Assembly: GCA_013361595.1 (NCBI GenBank)
Contig: JABFXT010000288.1
Location: 1 to 8,805, forward strand
Source of the DNA: Nocardia sp.
GTDB taxonomy: Bacteria; Actinomycetota; Actinomycetes; Mycobacteriales; Mycobacteriaceae
Reading direction: 5' to 3'
Length of the DNA: 8,805 nt
Shown here one piece after another: positions 293-8,622 of this stretch. The translations under genes were made by a program, and so were the position numbers. Numbering within the stretch: the stretch's first letter is position 1; each line of letters opens with the position of its first letter. Under the pieces are notes generated by a model that did no database searches, was not told the origin of the DNA, and was given only the letters and a program-made list of their open reading frames with translations.

Positions 293-2833
293 TCAGGCGT
301 TCACGACTCTGCCCAGTTCGGCGGGGGTCGCGAGCAGATCGTGCGACGGCAGTACGCGAACCGTGTACCCCACCGCACCCGACAGCGGCACCGGGGCGTC
401 GACGGTGAAGACCTCGAGTGCCGAATCGGCGGATTCACGGCCGGTATGGGACATGGCGACGGTCTGTGTATCGGAGAGATCGTCCTCGGGCGAGACGTGG
501 CCCAGTACCGCTTGTACTGTCACATCGCCGGGGCCGAGACCGGCGAGGTCCACCCGCGCGGTCAACGACAGCCGCGCCCCGATCACCGGGGTATCCGGCA
601 GGCCGGCCGCGTCCACCTGCACCACCCGCACGCCCGGCCAGGCATCGTCCACCCGCCGGCGGTACTCCGCGATCTCCCGCGCCCCCCGCAGATCCGCCGC
701 CGTGGCCTGCCGCCGGGCCGCGGCGGCCGGAGCGTAGTACCGCTCGGCGTATTCACGCACCATCCGGTCCGCGAGCACTTGCGGGCCGAGGGCGTGCAGG
801 GTGTGGCGCACCATCGCCACCCAGTGCGCCGGAATACCGTCCGCGCCCCGATCGTAGAAATGCCGCGTGACGGTACGCTCCATCAACTCGTAGAGCGCGG
901 TCGCCTCCAGATCGTCGCGGCGCTCGTCGTCGACGACGCCGTCGGCGGTCGGGATCGCCCACCCGTTCTCGCCGTCGAACATCTCGTCCCACCAACCGTC
1001 CCGGATGGACAGGTTCAGGCCGCCGTTGAGCGCCGATTTCATCCCGGAGGTTCCACACGCCTCCAGGGGTCGCAGCGGATTGTTCAGCCACACATCACAA
1101 CCCCAGTAGAGATACCGGGCCATGGACATGTCGTAGTCGGGCAGGAACACGATGCGATGCCGCACGGCCGGATCATCGGCGAACCGCACCACCTGCTGGA
1201 TCAGCGCCTTACCGCCCTCGTCCGCGGGGTGGCTCTTACCGGCCACCACCAGTTGCACCGGACGGTCGGGATCGAGCAGCAGATCCCGCAACCGCTGCGG
1301 ATCGCGCAGCATCAGGGTCAATCGCTTGTAGGTCGGCACCCGGCGCGCGAACCCGACCGTCAGCACTCCGGGGTCGAACACCGAATCCACCCAGTTCAGC
1401 TCGGCGTCGGCCGCCCCCCGCTGCCGCCACGACTCCCGCAGCCGCCGCCGCACCTCCCCGACCAGCTTCGCGCGCAGGGTCGCGCGGATCCGCCAGAGCC
1501 GCACCGGCTCCAGTTCCCCGAGGCGCTCCCACACCCGCGGGCAGTCGGCGGTGTCCAGCAGTTCTCCCCATTCCCGGGCGGCCCAGGTCGGCGCGTGCAC
1601 CCCGTTGGTCACCGACCCGATCGGCACCTCGGCGGCATCGAAACCGGGCCACAGCGGGTTGAACATGTCCCGGCTCACCGCGCCGTGCAACCGGGACACC
1701 CCGTTGGCCCGCTGGGCCAGCCGCAACCCCATATGCGCCATATTGAACACCGTCGGATCGGCCTCCCGGCCCAGCGCGACGATCCGGTCCACCCCGATCC
1801 CGGGCAGCAGCGGCGACTCCGATTCGCCGGACGATCCACCGAAATACCGGTGCACCAGCGAGACCGGGAATCTGTCGATCCCGGCCGGCACCGGCGTATG
1901 CGTGGTGAACACGGTGCCCGCGCGCACCGCCGCGAGCGCGGTATCGAAATCGTGACCCGCGGCCAGGTATTCACGGATCCGTTCCAGTCCGAGAAACCCC
2001 GCATGCCCCTCGTTCATATGGAACACCTCGGGATCGGCCGACCCCGCCGCGGCCGTATAGGCGCGCACTGCCCGTACGCCGCCGATCCCGGCGAGGATCT
2101 CCTGCTGGATCCGGTGTTCCTGATCGCCGCCGTAGAGCCGGTCGGTCACCGACCGCAGATCCGGATCGTTGGCCGCGATATCGGAATCCAGCAGCAACAG
2201 CGGAACTCGCCCCACCTGCGCGATCCACACCCGCGCCGTCAGCACCCGCCGATCCGGCATCGCCACGTGCACCAGCACCGGCGAGGAATCGGCGGTCAGC
2301 AGTCGCAACGGCAGACCCTGCGGATCCAGGGCCGGGTACCGCTCGGCCTGCCAGCCGTCGGCGGTCAGCGATTGCCGGAAATATCCCGATCGGTAGAGCA
2401 GCCCCACCGCGATCAGCGGTAACCCCAGATCCGATGCCGCCTTCAGATGGTCGCCGGCCAGGATGCCGAGCCCACCCGAATAGTTCGGCAGTACCTCGGT
2501 CACGCCGAACTCCATCGAGAAGTAGGCGATCCCGCCGACCCCGAAATCGGCCACCGGCCGATCCAGGTAGGCCCACAGATCGGCCGCCGCCGCATCGACC
2601 TGCCCGCAGAACTCCTCGTCACCGGCGAGCGCGTCGAGCCGCTCCGGCGGCACCTCGCCCAGCATCCGTACCGGATCGTGCCCGACCTCCGCCCACCGAT
2701 CCGGGTCCAGCGCGGCGAATACATCCTGCGTCGGCCCGTGCCACGACCAGCGCAGGTTGGTGGAGAGTTCGCCCAGCGCGGCCAGACGCTCCGGCAGATG
2801 GGCGCGGACGGTGAACCGACGCAGTGCCTTCAT
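293..2833 (-). CDS. glgP: Alpha-glucan (glycogen) phosphorylase, GT35 family
   Basis: The 846-residue cytoplasmic enzyme releases glucose 1-phosphate from the non-reducing ends of alpha-1,4-glucan using phosphate and pyridoxal phosphate (PLP). The N-terminus (LSTNLRWSW and the following ~100 residues) is the DUF3417 module of the short bacterial type. The catalytic part follows, with the HMNEGH motif at about 272-277 and the PLP-binding loop [15 protein letters not shown] with Lys599. Length and sequence fit M. tuberculosis GlgP (863 aa by memory). The start MKALRRF is the family start. An in-frame extension to 3097 would overlap glgE and is Arg-rich low-complexity sequence, so it was dropped. 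No Shine-Dalgarno sequence precedes the ATG, and a -10 motif ends 7 nt upstream, suggesting a leaderless mRNA. It is divergent from glgE-glgB; its product could re-enter maltose 1-phosphate synthesis through GlgM elsewhere in the genome (inference). Confidence 0.97.
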
Positions 2834-2850
2834 CCGCCCGAGCTTATTGG
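2834..2850 (-). promoter_or_regulatory. glgP promoter -10 region, probably leaderless
   Basis: On the minus strand CCAATAA (2850-2844) overlaps TAAGCT (2846-2841), which fits the actinobacterial -10 pattern TANNNT. Seven nucleotides separate it from the ATG at 2833, so transcription would start at or next to the start codon. The -35 is weak (GATTCC at 2869-2864, 17-nt spacer). Confidence 0.6.
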
Positions 2851-2924
2851 GAGCGACGGCAGCGGAATCGGCTGGCCCGGTTGCCGTGGTGTGCCGGTTT
2901 CCCCGCCACCGCCGTTGCCAATAA
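2844..2924. repeat. Inverted TTATTGG / CCAATAA pair framing the divergent promoters
   Basis: TTATTGG at 2844-2850 and CCAATAA at 2918-2924 are exact inverted copies 67 bp apart. Each ends exactly 10 nt before the start codon of its own gene (glgP and glgE). The copies include the first bases of both -10 elements. Confidence 0.7.
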
Positions 2925-2934
2925 CGTGGTACGG
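2918..2934 (+). promoter_or_regulatory. glgE-glgB promoter -10 region, probably leaderless
   Basis: CCAATAA (2918-2924) overlaps TAACGT (2922-2927), a TANNNT -10 box. Seven nucleotides separate it from the ATG at 2935, the same distance as on the glgP side. No ribosome-binding site is visible before the ATG. The -35 is unclear (TTTCCC around 2898-2903). Confidence 0.6.
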
Positions 2935-4938
2935 ATGACCGGCCGCATCGCCATCGATGACACTGCCCCGCTCGTCCCCGGCGGTTATCCGGCGAAGGCC
3001 GTGACCGGGGAGGTCTTCCCGGTGCGGGCCGTCGTGTGGCGGGACGGGCACGGCGCCGTCGGCGCCACCCTCGCAGTGCGGGCGCCGGGTTCGTCACGTT
3101 CGGTGCGTATCCCGATGACCCCCGACTACGAACCCGATGTCTTCAACGGCGTCTTCACTCCCACCGGCCCGGGCGTCTGGCATTTCCGGGTCGAGGGCTG
3201 GGCCGATTCCGTCGCGACCTGGCGGTCGGCGATGGAGACGAAACTGGCGGTCGGGCAGAGCGCGGCGGATCTGGACAACGATCTGGAAATCGGCGCCCGG
3301 TTGCTGGAGCGGGCGGCGCAGGCGGTGCCGAAACGGGAGTTCGAACGGCTGCGGGCGGCCGCGGCGGCACTGCGCAGTGCCGAATCGCTTCCGGCGCGGG
3401 TGGCTCCCGCGTTCACCGACGAGGTCGCCGAGATCCTGCGCCGGACGCCGCTACGGGATCTGCTCACCCGCGGACCGCAGTACTCGGTACTGGTGGAGCG
3501 GCCGCGGGCGCGGACCGGGTCCTGGTACGAGTTCTTCCCCCGCTCGACCGGTGGCCGCGACGACCGGGGCGTCCCGGTGCACGGCACCTTCGCGACCGCG
3601 GCGAACGAACTGCCCCGGATCGCGGCGATGGGGTTCGATGTGGTCTATCTGCCGCCGATCCATCCCATCGGCGCGGTCAACCGCAAGGGCCGCAACAACG
3701 CGCTCACCGCGGGTCCCGGCGACGTCGGCTCCCCGTGGGCGATCGGTTCGGCCGAGGGCGGCCACGACGCGTTCCATCCGCGGCTCGGTACCGAAACCGA
3801 TTTCCGCGCCCTCGTCACGGCCGCCGCCGACCTCGGCCTGGAGGTCGCACTGGACCTGGCGCTGCAATGCGCACCGGACCATCCGTGGGTGAGCGCGCAT
3901 CCGGAATGGTTCACCACCCTGCCCGACGGCACCATCGCCTACGCCGAGAATCCGCCCAAGAAATACCAGGACATCTATCCGCTCGAATTCGACAACGATC
4001 CCGACGGCCTCTACGCCGAGGTACTGCGTGTGGTCCGGTACTGGGTCGGGCTGGGCGTGCGGATCTTCCGGGTCGACAACCCGCACACCAAACCGGCCGA
4101 TTTCTGGGAGTGGCTGATCGCCGCGGTACGCCGGACCGACCCGGACGTGATCTTCCTGTCCGAAGCGTTCACCTACCCGGCACGTCTCTACGGTCTCGCG
4201 CGTCGTGGGTTCAGCCAGTCCTACACCTATTTCACCTGGCGCACCCACAAACACGAGCTCACCGAATTCGGTCTGGAACTCGCCGCCAAGGCCGATGAAG
4301 CCCGGCCCAACCTTTTCGTCAACACCCCCGACATCCTGCACGAGAGCCTGCAGCACGGCGGCCCGGGAATGTTCGCGATCCGGGCGGTCCTGGCCGCGAC
4401 CCTCGGCCCCAGCTGGGGGGTGTACTCCGGGTACGAGCTGTACGAGCACCGGGCCGTCCGGCCCGGAAGCGAGGAGTATCTGGATTCGGAGAAATACGAA
4501 CTGCGGCCCCGCCCGTTTGCCGAGGCCCGGGCCCGCGGCGAATCGCTGGAACCGCTGCTCACCCGCCTCAACGAGATCCGGCGGCGGCATCCGGCACTAC
4601 AGCAACTGCGGTGTCTGCACTTCCACCACATCGACAACGACAACCTGCTCGCCTACTCGAAGATCGACCCCGCGACCGGCGACGCGGTTCTGGTGGTGGT
4701 GAACCTGAACCCGTTCACCGCCGAACAGGGGACGCTGTCGCTGGATCTGCCGGCGATCGGCCGGGAATGGCACGATCGCCCGGTGGTGCACGACGAGATC
4801 AGCGGCGAGCAGTACCACTGGGCGCAGTCCAACTACATCCGGCTCGACCCCGCCGATGCGGTCGCCCACCTCATCGCGCTCCCGCCGGTACCCCATCACG
4901 CCCGTGCCGCACTGGCCCATCGGCGCGACTTCCGGTGA
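2935..4938 (+). CDS. glgE: Alpha-1,4-glucan:maltose-1-phosphate maltosyltransferase, GH13_3
   Basis: The 667-residue cytosolic enzyme transfers maltosyl units from alpha-maltose 1-phosphate to the non-reducing end of alpha-1,4-glucan. An N-terminal beta-sandwich (residues ~1-105, DUF3416) and a helical insert precede the (beta/alpha)8 barrel, and a beta C-terminal domain follows. The expected residues are present: nucleophile Asp381 (FRVDNPH), acid/base Glu410 (FLSEAF), and Asp466 (VNTPD) as transition-state stabiliser. Asn339, Tyr344, Asn382, Lys520 and Tyr521 match the maltose-1-phosphate-binding positions I recall for Streptomyces coelicolor GlgE. The nucleophile to acid/base spacing (29 residues) is identical to that enzyme. 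The start MTGRIAIDD aligns with the family N-terminus; an upstream ATG at 2824 would overlap glgP. glgB follows after 4 nt. The maltose-1-phosphate suppliers (TreS-Pep2 or GlgM) are not in the window. Confidence 0.97.
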
Positions 4939-4942
4939 CCAC

Positions 4943-7102
4943 GTGATAGAACGTCGCGACCTGCTGCTCCTGGCGGCCGGCAGCCACCCCGACCCGCATA
5001 CGGTGCTCGGCGCGCACCCCCGTCCCGACGGCACCGTAGTCCGGGTGCTGCGACCGGCCGCGGAATCGGTGTCGGTGCTCGTCGGCGGTACCGATCACCG
5101 CCTGGAGCCGGTGGGCCACGGCGTTTTCGCCGCCGTACTGCCGTACCCCGATCTACTGGACTACCGCATCGTCACCGTGCATCCCCATCTTCCGGCCACC
5201 GTCGCCGCCGACGGCTACCGCTTCCTGCCCACTCTCGGCGAACTCGACCTACATCTCATCGGCGAAGGCCGGCATCAGCGGCTGTGGGAGGTGCTCGGCG
5301 CGCACCCGCGCGCCTATCACGGCCTCGACGGGGAAGTCCGGGGTGTCTCCTTCGCGGTCTGGGCCCCGAACGCCCGCGGGGTGACCGTATTCGGCGATTT
5401 CGACCACTGGCAGGGCGGCACCTGGCCGATGCGCGCCCTCGGACAGTCGGGGGTCTGGGAGGTTTTCGTCCCCGGCGCGGCGCCCGGTGACCGCTACAAA
5501 TACCGGATCCACGGGGCCGACGGCCGGATGGCCGATCACGCCGATCCGGTCGCCTTCGCCACCGAGGTCCCACCGGCCACCGCGTCCGTGGTGGCCGAGT
5601 CCGGTCACCGGTGGACCGACCACAACTGGGTCACCGCCCGCGTCCACACCGATCCCGCGCGGGCCCCGCTCAGCATTTTCGAAATCCATCTCGCGTCCTG
5701 GCGACCCGGTCTGGGCTACCGCGAACTCGCGACCGAGCTCAGTGAATACGTGCGCCACCTCGGATTCACCCACGTCGAACTGCTACCGGTCGCCGAACAC
5801 CCGTTCGGCGGATCCTGGGGATACCAGGTCACCTCGTACTACGCCCCGACCTCGCGGTTCGGCAGCCCGGACGATTTCCGGGCTTTCGTCGACCATATGC
5901 ACGCCGACGGTATCGGCGTCATCCTCGACTGGGTACCCGCGCATTTCCCGCGCGATACCTGGGCACTGGCCCGTTTCGACGGCACCCCGCTCTACGAACA
6001 TCCGGACCCGCGCCGCGGCGAACAACCGGAATGGGGCACCTACGTCTTCGATTACGGGCGGCCCGAAGTACGTAATTTCCTGGTCGCCAACGCCCGGTTC
6101 TGGATCGAGGAGTTCCATATCGACGGCCTGCGCGTCGACGCGGTCGCGGCCATGCTGTACCTCGACTACGCGCGCCCCGGCGGCGGCTGGGAGCCGAACA
6201 TCCACGGCGGCCGCGAGCATCTGGAAGCGGTCGCCTTCCTCACCGAGCTGAACGACAGCCTGCACGGCTCGTATCCGGGTGTGGTCACCATCGCCGAGGA
6301 ATCCACCACCTGGGCGGGTGTCACCCGGGCCACGGAAGTCGGCGGACTCGGCTTCTCCATGAAGTGGAACATGGGCTGGATGCACGACACCCTGAGCTAT
6401 CTGGGCCGTGATCCCGTGCACCGCACCTGGCACCACAACGAGATCACCTTCTCGCTCATGTACGCGTGGAGCGAGAACTACGTGCTGCCGCTCAGCCACG
6501 ACGAGGTCGTGCACGGCAAAGGCACGCTGTGGACCCGGATGCCCGGTGACGAATTCGCCAAAGCCGGCGGCGTCCGCGCCCTGCTCGCCTATATGTGGGC
6601 CCATCCCGGTAAACAACTGCTGTTCATGGGCCAGGAGTTCGGGCACTACCGCGAATGGTGGCACGACCACAGTCTCGACTGGCACGAGCTGGACAATCCG
6701 CTGCATCGCGGTATCCAGCTGCTGGTCGCCGACCTGAACCGCGTCTACCGCGACCACCCGGCCCTGTGGAGTCAGGACACCACCCCCGGCGGGCACTCCT
6801 GGATCACCGCCGACGACCGGGAGACCAACGTCCTGGCCTTCCTCCGGCACGGCGCCGACGGCTCCACGGTGGCCTGTATCTGCAATTTCTCCGGCACCAC
6901 CCGCACCGATCACCGGATCGGCCTACCCGCCGCCGGGGACTGGATCGAGATCCTGAACACCGACGCACTCGAATACGGCGGCACCGGCGCGGGCAATCTC
7001 GGCGTAGTGCACGCCGAGCCGGTGAGCCGGCACGACCGCCCCGCCTCGGCCGCGCTCACTTTGGGCCCGCTCAGCGTCGTCTGGATGACCCCGCGTCCCT
7101 GA
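4943..7102 (+). CDS. glgB: 1,4-alpha-glucan branching enzyme, GH13_9
   Basis: The 719-residue cytosolic enzyme cuts alpha-1,4 chains and re-attaches them in alpha-1,6 linkage, branching the GlgE product. The order is: N-terminal module (~1-100, with [12 protein letters not shown]), CBM48 (~110-205, [10 protein letters not shown]...GDFDHW), catalytic barrel, and C-terminal beta domain from ~620. The GH13 regions are DWVPAHFP (Asp329, His334), DGLRVDAVA (nucleophile Asp399), IAEEST (acid/base Glu452) and LSHDEVVH (Asp520). The nucleophile to acid/base distance of 53 matches M. tuberculosis GlgB as I remember it. I chose the GTG at 4943 (VIERRDLL...), just before the conserved N-terminal module and 4 nt after the glgE stop. 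The upstream ATG at 4856 lies inside glgE and would add an atypical Arg/Pro-rich stretch. The tight spacing implies co-transcription and probably translational coupling with glgE. Confidence 0.97.
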
Positions 7103-7138: not shown

Positions 7139-7158
7139 CACCCGGTTCCAGACCGGTG
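7139..7158 (+). terminator. Possible terminator hairpin after glgB
   Basis: CACCCGGT (7139-7146) pairs with ACCGGTG (7152-7158) with one bulged C, around the 5-nt loop TCCAG, 36 nt after the glgB stop. No T-tract follows. The IS110 element is inserted 6-7 nt beyond the 3' arm, at the foot of this hairpin. Confidence 0.4.
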
Positions 7159-7176
7159 CCGAGATGCTCCTATGGA

Positions 7177-7182
7177 TGTCAA
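7177..7182 (-). promoter_or_regulatory. Consensus -35 box at the right end of the IS, facing outward
   Basis: TTGACA lies on the minus strand and includes the transposase TGA stop. Ten nucleotides of element follow it. If the element circularises, the next bases are the left end (CAGTGAGGATGGG...), putting GATGGG (8468-8463) at a 17-nt spacing. This fits the junction promoter known for IS110 circles, although the -10 is poor. In the inserted state no good -10 follows in the flank. Confidence 0.5.
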
Positions 7183-8237
7183 GTGGTGGGGTTGGTGGTG
7201 ATGAGGTGGTAGACCTCGCGGGCGACGTAGCGTTTGAGGCAGCGGATGATTTCTTTTTTCGACAGGCCTTGTTGGGTGCGTCGCTGCAGGTAGGCGCGGG
7301 TTGGTGGGTGCCAGCGGAGTCGGGTGATCACGATGCGGTGGACCGCGGCGTTGGCGTGGCGGTCACCGCCTCGGTTGAGGCGGTGACGGATGGTTCTCCC
7401 AGAAGATGCCGGGATCGGGGCCACGCCGCAGAGCATGGCGAACGCGGCTTCCGACCGCAGCCGGTGAGGGTTGTCACCGACGGTGACCAGGAGTTGGCCG
7501 GCAGTGTCGATGCCGAGGCCGTGGGCGGCGAGCAAGGTCGGGTTGATCACGGTCACGAGAGGTTTCAACAGTTCGTCGAGTTCGTTGATCTCGATGGTGA
7601 GTTGCTGGTGGCGCCGCGCCAGCGTGCGCAGGGCGATCTTCGTGGCAGTAGCCGGGGTGGCGGCAGTGGCGCGGTCGGGGCGCAGGCCCGCGCAGGTGGT
7701 GATCAGGGTGGTATCGGTGAGGTGACGCAGCCGGGCGCGCAGGTCCTCGGGTGCGGTGACCACCACGGCTTTGATCCGTCGTTGTGTGTCGGCGCGCTGG
7801 GTGATGGCGGAGCGGCGCGCGATCCGCAGGGTGCGCAGGGCTTCTACCCGCCCGTCGCGCTGTTTGGGTGTGATAGCACGTTCACCTGCGGCGGCGGTCC
7901 GGGCCGCGGCGATCGCGTCGATCGGGTCGGATTTACCCTGCAACCGGCGGATTCTGCGGTTCGGGCGGTCCACCTCGACAGTGTCGATGCCATGGTCGGC
8001 CAGGACGCGGGCCAGACCGGCGCCGTAGGCGCCGGTGCCTTCGACACCGACCCGGGTCAGGCGCCCGAACTCACGCATCCAGTCGACCAGTGCCAGGTAA
8101 CCGCCTGTGTCGGCACCGAACTCGGCGGTGCCCAGCACCCGGCCCAGGCCGTCGATCACCGCCGCGGTGTGGGTGTCACGGTGGGTATCGACACCACCGA
8201 TGATCGCGGCTTCGACTTCGTGTTCATGATGGGTCAT
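7179..8237 (-). CDS. IS110-family transposase (bridge-RNA-guided recombinase)
   Basis: The 352-residue recombinase would excise the element as a circle and insert it at sites chosen by a bridge RNA. The N-terminal RuvC-like DEDD domain (about 10-160) shows Asp17 (GGVDTHRDTH), Glu66 (VGVEGTGAYG), and Asp104 and Asp107 (KSDPIDA), the four expected metal ligands. A charged helical stretch (about 165-230, probable coiled coil) links to the C-terminal Tnp domain with HGLGIDTAGQLL and the ASSGRT motif. Ser279 there aligns with the catalytic serine of IS621 (by memory). The start MTHHEHEVE at 8237 lies just before the first Asp; extending to 8417 would translate through the structured leader. The ribosome-binding site is weak. 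It is complete, with no frameshift, and lies opposite in strand to glgE-glgB. Confidence 0.95.
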   Translation of the reverse strand: MTHHEHEVEAAIIGGVDTHRDTHTAAVIDGLGRVLGTAEFGADTGGYLALVDWMREFGRLTRVGVEGTGAYGAGLARVLADHGIDTVEVDRPNRRIRRLQGKSDPIDAIAAARTAAAGERAITPKQRDGRVEALRTLRIARRSAITQRADTQRRIKAVVVTAPEDLRARLRHLTDTTLITTCAGLRPDRATAATPATATKIALRTLARRHQQLTIEINELDELLKPLVTVINPTLLAAHGLGIDTAGQLLVTVGDNPHRLRSEAAFAMLCGVAPIPASSGRTIRHRLNRGGDRHANAAVHRIVITRLRWHPPTRAYLQRRTQQGLSKKEIIRCLKRYVAREVYHLITTNPTT

Positions 8238-8308
8238 GCTGGAAAGGTCCGTCCTGTTGTTCGACCGATCGGCGGGGCGGCACGCACCAGCCGGGTGGAC
8301 GGACACGA

Positions 8309-8314
8309 CAGTGA
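8309..8314 (-). promoter_or_regulatory. Right donor guide of the bridge RNA
   Basis: TCACTG is the complement of CAGTGA at 8475-8470, the CA core plus the first four bases of the left end. It is the shortest of the four matches, but it is placed correctly, 3' of the left donor guide in the same loop. Confidence 0.6.
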
Positions 8315-8331
8315 CGGGTCTGCGGTAACAG

Positions 8332-8340
8332 GCTCCTATG
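8332..8340 (-). promoter_or_regulatory. Left donor guide of the bridge RNA
   Basis: CATAGGAGC is identical to the right end of the element at 7174-7166, ending on the first core base. The base before it is again a guide U opposite a C in the DNA (8341 and 7175), as in the target loop. Confidence 0.75.
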
Positions 8341-8398
8341 AAGTCACGACCACCACGCCCGGTGAGTGCGGTGGCCCCGCAGCAGCCTCGACCGACAG

Positions 8399-8406
8399 AT
8401 CTCGGC
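8399..8406 (-). promoter_or_regulatory. Right target guide of the bridge RNA
   Basis: GCCGAGAT is the exact complement of minus-strand ATCTCGGC at 7165-7158, that is, the core A plus the seven flanking bases beyond the right end. The next guide base (C at 8398) does not pair with the core C. Confidence 0.75.
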
Positions 8407-8422
8407 CAAGACACCACGGTCA

Positions 8423-8431
8423 GTCTTACGA
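8423..8431 (-). promoter_or_regulatory. Left target guide of the bridge RNA
   Basis: TCGTAAGAC is identical to the flank at 8483-8475 on the same strand, ending on the first base of the CA core. One base further out (guide U at 8432, flank C at 8484) would be a G-U wobble with the bottom strand. Confidence 0.75.
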
Positions 8432-8493
8432 AGGGTCAGGACAAGGCAACTGCGGGGCCACACCCATCCTCACTGTCTTACGAGGCCCCCAAA

Positions 8494-8622
8494 GGTCGAG
8501 GCCCGTCCCGCCCTTGACCGGAGGTGCTCAACGGTTCACATTCCCCGGACGGCCGACCGCACGTCGCATGAGCGAAGCTCGAGTCTCGAGGGCTGAACGG
8601 CGGGACCGAGGGGGCCTCGACC
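8494..8622. repeat. Long interrupted inverted repeat, possible structured RNA
   Basis: GGTCGAGGCCC plus GTCCCGCC (8494-8512) pairs with GGCGGGAC (8599-8606) and GGGCCTCGACC (8612-8622): 19 base pairs with one 5-nt bulge (8607-8611). The 86 nt enclosed contain further pairing, including GAGC-GAA-GCTC at 8570-8580 and CTCGAG-T-CTCGAG at 8578-8590. Function and transcribed strand are unknown. Confidence 0.6.

Follow-up and report, generated by a model that had tools for sequence, protein, structure and literature searches.

The window analysed here, a stretch of 8,805 nt, contains a carbohydrate gene cluster followed, after glgB, by a single IS110-family element on the minus strand, and it raises the question of how this element was directed to its present site. 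An initial annotation had proposed that the left end of the element encodes the target-binding loop of an IS110 bridge RNA whose two guides match the flanks of the insertion. The host genome assembly comprises 5.18 Mb in 908 contigs, and the following features frame the locus.

293-3097, minus strand: alpha-glucan phosphorylase-like gene, part of the carbohydrate cluster
2824-4938, plus strand: GlgE-like gene, part of the carbohydrate cluster
4856-7102, plus strand: GlgB-like gene, part of the carbohydrate cluster
7164-8475, minus strand: IS110-group element of 1,312 bp, with limits taken from uninterrupted host repeats and the same layout in two other species
7179-8237, minus strand: recombinase CDS (352 aa), identified by Pfam PF01548 and PF02371, an alignment of 26 sequences, and profile matches to IS621 (8wt6) and ISCro4 (9t56)
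8274-8475, minus strand: left end with the predicted bridge RNA (covariance-model match of 163.8 bits, the window being among the 29 model sequences)

The recombinase has the IS110-group combination of a DEDD RuvC-like domain (PF01548) and a Transposase_20 domain (PF02371) with a conserved serine; among the 26 aligned sequences, D17 and this serine (S278) never vary, and E66, D104, and D107 almost never do. The longer non-coding end and the RNA lie on the left, upstream of the gene, as in the IS110 group: the left end (8475-8238) measures 238 bp compared to 15 bp for the right end (7178-7164), where the shared core C was assigned to the element at 8475. In IS1111 elements, the longer non-coding end and the RNA lie on the right, and long sub-terminal inverted repeats are a further characteristic. 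The recombinase differs from IS621 in that it matched that protein only through the family profile: a PDB search with the single recombinase sequence gave no match, and the profile built from the alignment matched two solved proteins only, IS621 (E 7.3e-12) and, second, ISCro4 (E 9.9e-11), which was compared by protein only and aligned over its C-terminal part (profile 207-337). Searches of Rfam at the gathering score returned no match in the window or in the related loci L007, L016, L031, and L059.

The proposed loop and the bases within it that could read the target are as follows.

8371-8461, minus strand: target-binding loop, the feature of the initial annotation, from sequence, fold, and alignment
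8422-8431, minus strand: left target guide TCGTAAGACT, in the same sense as the left target (LT) plus core CT, from family comparison
8401-8406, minus strand: right target guide GCCGAG, which complements core CT and the adjoining right target (RT) (CTCGGC, 7163-7158)
8399-8400, minus strand: predicted target-loop handshake bases AU, complementary to AT, the last two bases of the element's right end, by analogy with IS621 (PMC11208158)

The 12-bp perfect stem (8461-8450 with 8382-8371, around 67 nt) is present on the minus strand, and TCGTAAGAC at 8431-8423 equals 8483-8475 read on the same strand; compared to the uninterrupted repeat, this left match is one base longer, giving the 10 nt of TCGTAAGACT. 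Likewise, GCCGAGAT at 8406-8399 is the reverse complement of 7165-7158, although that stretch does not lie wholly outside the right end as had been proposed, because CAT at 7166-7164 belongs to the element. The initial annotation had judged the two matches very unlikely to be fortuitous. Dinucleotide shuffling of the 91-nt loop, repeated 20,000 times, produced the 9-mer in 3 shuffles and the 8-mer in 22. The 6-mer GCCGAG is by itself common (1,191 of the same shuffles) and could in isolation reflect chance, but it accompanied the 9-mer in none of the 20,000; moreover, the family covariation of the guides described below contradicts chance as the source of both flank matches, to which we assign a negligible probability.

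The boundary of the element, and with it the length of the right guide, was fixed by copies of the host repeat that lack an insertion.

8476-8620, minus strand: palindromic, REP-like host repeat that serves as left flank and target; 32 genome matches, with the window and partial matches counted
7158-7163, minus strand: target core CT plus right target CGGC, from uninterrupted repeats

The repeat belongs to a palindromic intergenic family, GTTCAGCCCTCGAGACTCGAG..., whose 32 matches in the host genome include some that are partial and some that lie within one contig. Uninterrupted copies read CTCGTAAGA-CTCGG. Six such copies in the host's own genome run from CTCGTAA..C straight to TCGG without CAT, three of them as CTCGTAAGACTCGG, and a gap-tolerant pattern found five sites in this genome with CAT in none. 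The same layout without CAT was found at all 46 uninterrupted repeat sites matched in two other species: CGGCGGA-CATCGCGGTAG in 16 of 16 pattern matches in Phytohabitans flavus, and TTGAATGA-CTCATTCAGG in 30 of 30 in Amycolatopsis sp. 2-2. The patterns used in all three genomes would equally have matched sites with CAT. By contrast, CAT is present at inserted copies: four of those in P. flavus have GGAGCAT-CATCGCGG, the fifth (L043) has one extra CAT, and the two in Amycolatopsis have GGAGCAT-CTCATTCAGG. We therefore assign CAT (7166-7164) to the right end of the element itself and read the target core as CT, which leaves CTCGGC, or 6 nt, as the portion of the right match that lies in the target. 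The predicted target is TCGTAAGA-CT-CGGC, on whose CT both target guides overlap as in IS621. As expected if CAT is part of the element, the pattern CGTAARACATCTC had no match in the host's own genome.

These uninterrupted sites, which fix the element junctions, bear directly on the initial proposal that both guide matches flank the same CA crossover, with CATCTCGGC as the true right target. CA is indeed present at both junctions, and the left and right guides can be aligned on it. That arrangement would require a target preference for TC, which follows CA in 23 of 23 distinct right junctions, and the additional CAT of the fifth P. flavus copy would be in keeping with it. However, the proposal is overturned by the CT core of the uninterrupted repeats in the host's own genome and by the missing CAT in all three genomes, and the 17-bp promoter spacer described below exists only if CAT lies inside the element. 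We consider a CA crossover highly improbable and take CT as the core of this target. A core of CA with an invariant TC as target had been our own first assignment before the uninterrupted repeats overturned it.

In a separate observation, two loci on contigs C305 and C332 of one assembly (L146 and L148, genome G000) share 86 identical flanking bases, with the element in one and an empty repeat in the other; they are possibly the filled and empty alleles of one site in one population.

If the loop bases are guides, they should change with the flanks of homologous elements. A scan of 83 loci (the best 80 of 97 contig loci, plus same-genus genomes) detected the left-end motif in 43; without one locus that has no flank (L010), 42 junctions remained, which collapsed to 29 distinct left ends with the window counted. 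In each, the flank was compared with the ten bases that precede the conserved TGAC of the loop. Over LT -8 to -1 and the first core base, left guide and left flank agreed at 242 of 261 positions, compared to a mean of 162.2 (sd 6.0) when flanks were re-dealt, and 0 of 20,000 permutations reached 242. Because the left-junction motif itself constrained LT -1 (A or C only) and the core (first base A, C, or T; second base A or G), the test was repeated on positions -8 to -3 by themselves, and these agreed at 156 of 174, compared to 87.6 (sd 5.3) on permutation, with 0 of 20,000 reaching the observed value; since the 29 sequences are related, these permutation counts are not true probabilities.

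The right guide gave a narrower signal. Its counts are out of 23, because the right junction or right guide was unread in 6 of the 29, and positions were numbered from the last base of the element's right end (1) through the first (2) and second (3) core bases to the first right-target base, RT1 (4). At the second core base, 19 of 23 guides fit (permuted mean 9.7; 0 of 20,000 reach), and at RT1, 16 of 23 (permuted mean 8.6; 4 of 20,000 reach). Beyond RT1 there was no family signal (8, 3, and 7 of 23 compared to permuted values of 6.8, 3.3, and 5.4), and therefore the extra GGC matches in the window may be partly coincidental. Hence the proposed polarity, with the left guide in the same sense as the target and the right guide complementary to it, is strongly supported by guide-flank agreement across the family, whereas the 8-nt right guide of the initial annotation becomes a 6-nt guide, GCCGAG, that is informative in the family at two positions only.

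Individual elements followed the same pattern. Guides differ among species, reading ACGGCGGAC in P. flavus, TTGAATGAC in Amycolatopsis, and CCGCTTAAC in Nonomuraea typhae, and multi-copy elements have one left guide and similar left flanks in common (six copies in Nonomuraea jabiensis, five in P. flavus). The six N. jabiensis copies carry the guide TCAACTGAC, with flanks of TCAACTGAC in five and TCTACTGAC in one. Counting against the pattern, the left guides of L024 and L064 fit poorly (7 and 6 of 10 aligned positions), and that of L032 is mismatched at the first core base.

One locus, L030 of Frankia sp. AiPs1, has two left ends, 279 and 228 bases upstream of the recombinase match; the second, TAGTGAGG, comes directly after a sequence identical to the left guide of this element, CCCGTCACGTGA, which would fit an insertion of the element into its own guide.

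The structure predicted for the RNA was examined by folding and by comparison. A fold of -112.7 kcal/mol (z -2.87) is predicted for 8238-8475, and 3 of 200 shuffles are as stable. The consensus fold contains 49 pairs, of which 22 show changes on both sides. In this fold 96.5% of cells can pair, a share that falls to 35.2-43.1% once the partner strand is shifted one to three columns; double-changed cells number 138, compared to 53.6 in shuffles. The outer stem of the target loop holds 14 of the 22 double-changed pairs, so that the compensatory changes sought in this stem are present, and in the inner donor-loop helices 5 and 6 no pair is changed on both sides. The RNA thus has the bridge-RNA layout of two loops, target then donor, with stems supported by covariation. 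No helix is predicted 5' of alignment column 28, and the start of the transcript is a prediction only. Run on the window and 40 chosen loci, the covariance model built from the 29 sequences matched 36 of the 40, all outside the model, at E <= 0.01, where some loci are sister copies and not all are independent.

Located directly ahead of the recombinase start codon and stably folded, this RNA region could be a structured leader that controls recombinase translation, with flank matches that are incidental or copied from the flank. We regard this reading as very unlikely, because the guides track the flanks over many species and unrelated sites, and because the guide stays constant among the copies of a multi-copy element although the wider flanks differ. 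Neither a fixed loop beside differing flanks nor a stem without covariation, the two outcomes named as contrary to a target-binding loop, was found; instead, guides that vary with flanks and compensatory changes in the stem strongly support it.

Beyond the features initially annotated, we identified a predicted donor-binding loop, predicted handshake bases, and a predicted promoter that spans the circle junction.

8278-8369, minus strand: donor-binding loop, with approximate ends (alignment helix 4), from the alignment
8332-8340, minus strand: left donor guide CATAGGAGC, in the same sense as the element's right end, 7174-7166
8307-8314, minus strand: right donor guide TCACTG and, after it, handshake TC; the whole octamer is the reverse complement of GA-CA-GTGA (8477-8470)

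TCACTG at 8314-8309 is the complement of the element's left end, and the two bases that follow it complement the last two target bases in 29 of 29 distinct left ends, with LT GA opposite RNA UC in 23 and AA opposite UU in 6. The right donor guide likewise tracks RD (GTGA with UCAC in 21, GAGA with UCUC in 8), and neither relationship has an exception in these 29; the donor-loop pattern applied to them was restricted to C or T at the handshake position and to A or T within the donor guide. A relaxed scan added four left ends. L090 has a left core of CT instead of CA, and its guide, UCACAGUC, is the complement of GA-CT-GTGA, a full fit. Exceptions to the handshake were L033 and L038, which end in GG opposite RNA UC (one G-U wobble pair), and L054, which ends in GG with core CC and RNA UG, such that neither handshake nor core fits. 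The predicted donor-loop handshake pairing matches that reported for IS621 (PMC11208158). The target-loop handshake AU is invariant in the family and so offers no covariation.

A short seekRNA, consisting of the target loop only, could instead be the functional RNA, with the protein recognising the element's ends and the donor loop not read by base pairing. Work on the seekRNA of ISEc21, an IS110-family element, reports short forms, including a shortened 58-nt form (PMC11187229), and the left donor guide hardly varies in the 29, so that it yields little covariation. This alternative appears unlikely, given that both the right donor guide and the donor-loop handshake base change with the DNA that they would read, that L090 alters guide and core jointly, and that the covariance model spans both loops. 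We therefore prefer a two-loop bridge RNA. With respect to the initial proposal, 8371-8461 is very probably a target-binding loop, whose guides TCGTAAGACT and GCCGAG likely direct the recombinase to the host repeat CTCGTAAGACTCGGC, and the donor loop matches the element's ends. The observations on which this reading is based are sequence matches, the agreement of guides and donor handshake across the family, structural covariation, and uninterrupted target sites. With guide, handshake, and donor bases that change with the DNA across many genera, the family is a natural and independent check on the bridge-RNA model in actinobacteria.

The left donor guide ends two bases (AT) short of the core (window 7164-7174 compared to 8332-8340). 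Therefore the donor guides do not overlap on the core, unlike those of IS621.

The core itself was only partly shared by the two ends. In 35 elements with both junctions read, the left core was CA in 35 of 35, under a search pattern restricted to A or G at the second core position; the right core was CC in 17, CT in 7, CA in 7, CG in 3, and TC in 1. When that limit was removed, the left core was CA in 42, TA in 1, CC in 1, and CT in 1 of 45 (first junction per locus; window uncounted). Rather than the same core dinucleotide at both ends, which characterises IS621-type bridge RNAs, the ends have one base in common (left CA, right CN), so that the donor A mostly stays on the left and the target N on the right. 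In our interpretation, strands would be exchanged after the first core base, or a two-base heteroduplex would be resolved with a bias; either would fit the junction sequences. Only C is shared here (target CN, element CA), whereas IS621 has CT at both. The single shared base reveals which junction base derives from which parent molecule, which is unreadable in IS621 because both of its cores are CT. A left core of TA was noted in L049, as in L030.

Sequences at the two ends suggest how the RNA could be transcribed.

7177-7182, minus strand: TTGACA, predicted -35 box, overlapping the recombinase stop codon, from sequence and from TTGAC in 33 of 35 right ends
8466-8471, minus strand: GAGGAT, predicted -10 box, 17 bp from TTGACA only once the ends are joined as a circle

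TTGAC stands directly before the right end in these 33 elements, and the 17-bp spacing across the circle junction holds only if CAT is included. In the cycle that we propose, the element would leave as a circle, whose joined ends would place TTGACA 17 bp from GAGGAT and so allow transcription from about the first base of the target-loop stem, with an RNA start near 8459. The recombinase and RNA would then pair with target and circle together, strands would be exchanged at the core C, and the handshake bases of each loop would pair with the partner DNA after exchange and thereby aid it. Recombination of the circle junction with the target CTCGTAAGACTCGGC would be expected to give the junctions CTCGTAAGACAGTG and GGAGCATCTCGG. 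Transcription, RNA length, binding, and catalysis are steps that we infer from sequence.

Comparison with characterised systems places the element as a predicted IS110-group bridge RNA with a variant core and variant donor pairing, known in kind and new in detail. Likenesses to IS621 (PMC11208160, PMC11208158) include the PF01548 and PF02371 recombinase with a left-end RNA upstream of its gene; a target loop before a donor loop, each with a left guide, a small stem-loop, and a right guide; a left guide that exceeds the right guide in length; and a -35 box in the right end and a -10 box in the left end, with a REP-like target. Handshake positions follow each right guide, and the target-loop AU occurs in both systems (PMC11208158); in the same account, A81 and U82 of IS621 pair with dA6 and dT7. 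A difference is that the predicted RNA start would leave no space between the -10 box and the target-loop stem for the 5' stem-loop of IS621. The ISEc21 seekRNA (PMC11187229) resembles the RNA of our element in its family, IS110, and in having, for each of the two target strands, a complementary stretch; the non-coding region upstream of tnp is likewise the longer one, and the recombinase size (352 aa here) lies within the 345-385 aa of the ISEc21 cluster. It differs in that its RNA is described as short, and the likeness is by description, not by sequence. The compact recombinases of this family are candidate tools for programmable recombination in hosts with high GC content. Searches limited to open-licence PMC text listed no title or abstract opening that described this element, stop-codon-programmed bridge RNAs, or the nesting of one guide within another.

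The insertion sites of relatives were also compared. In 38 loci (without L010, L030, L064, L002, and the window), the left target ends in a stop triplet (TGA or TAA) in 31, and in 16 this stop terminates an open frame that is 80 or more codons long and rich in GC at third positions, compared to a background of 23 of 312 CTGAC sites elsewhere in the same loci; copies in one genome are not independent in these counts. Among the 16 upstream proteins, 13 match a Pfam family above its curated cut-off, 1 matches below it, and 2 have no match. Therefore the guides look programmed onto stop codons, suggesting a route by which such elements could stay harmless. The window copy and the P. flavus and Amycolatopsis copies lie in repeats instead. 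We consider the chances about even that these elements form a distinct actinobacterial bridge-RNA clade in which the second core base would be unexchanged (donor A left, target N right), the guides repeatedly programmed onto sites that tolerate insertion with little damage, either gene stop codons or genome repeats, and the conserved donor guide targeted by a second IS110 clade.

At five loci, in at least four genera, the donor guide of the clade's bridge RNA is split (GTGACCTNATAG / AGGAGCCTGG) by a second IS110-family element.

L007, 1100-2405: second element
L016, 1086-2399: second element, with PF01548 and PF02371 (the one locus searched for these domains)
L031, 309-2415: second element
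L059: 3' side of the second element, at 1103
L193: 5' side of the second element, at 1471

The covariance model found the interrupted RNA pieces in all five loci; both second-element junctions were read in L007, L016, and L031, and one each in L059 and L193. A search of 394 genomes yielded one close relative (L193) and five more distant ones that were not seen in such a site. For the second element of L007, a 7-base left match only was found, and no right-guide match was seen. The leader of the second element in L031 carries CAGGCTCCT and CTCATAGC, which match both sides of its site, and the bridge RNA predicted for the second element is apparently aimed at another bridge RNA.
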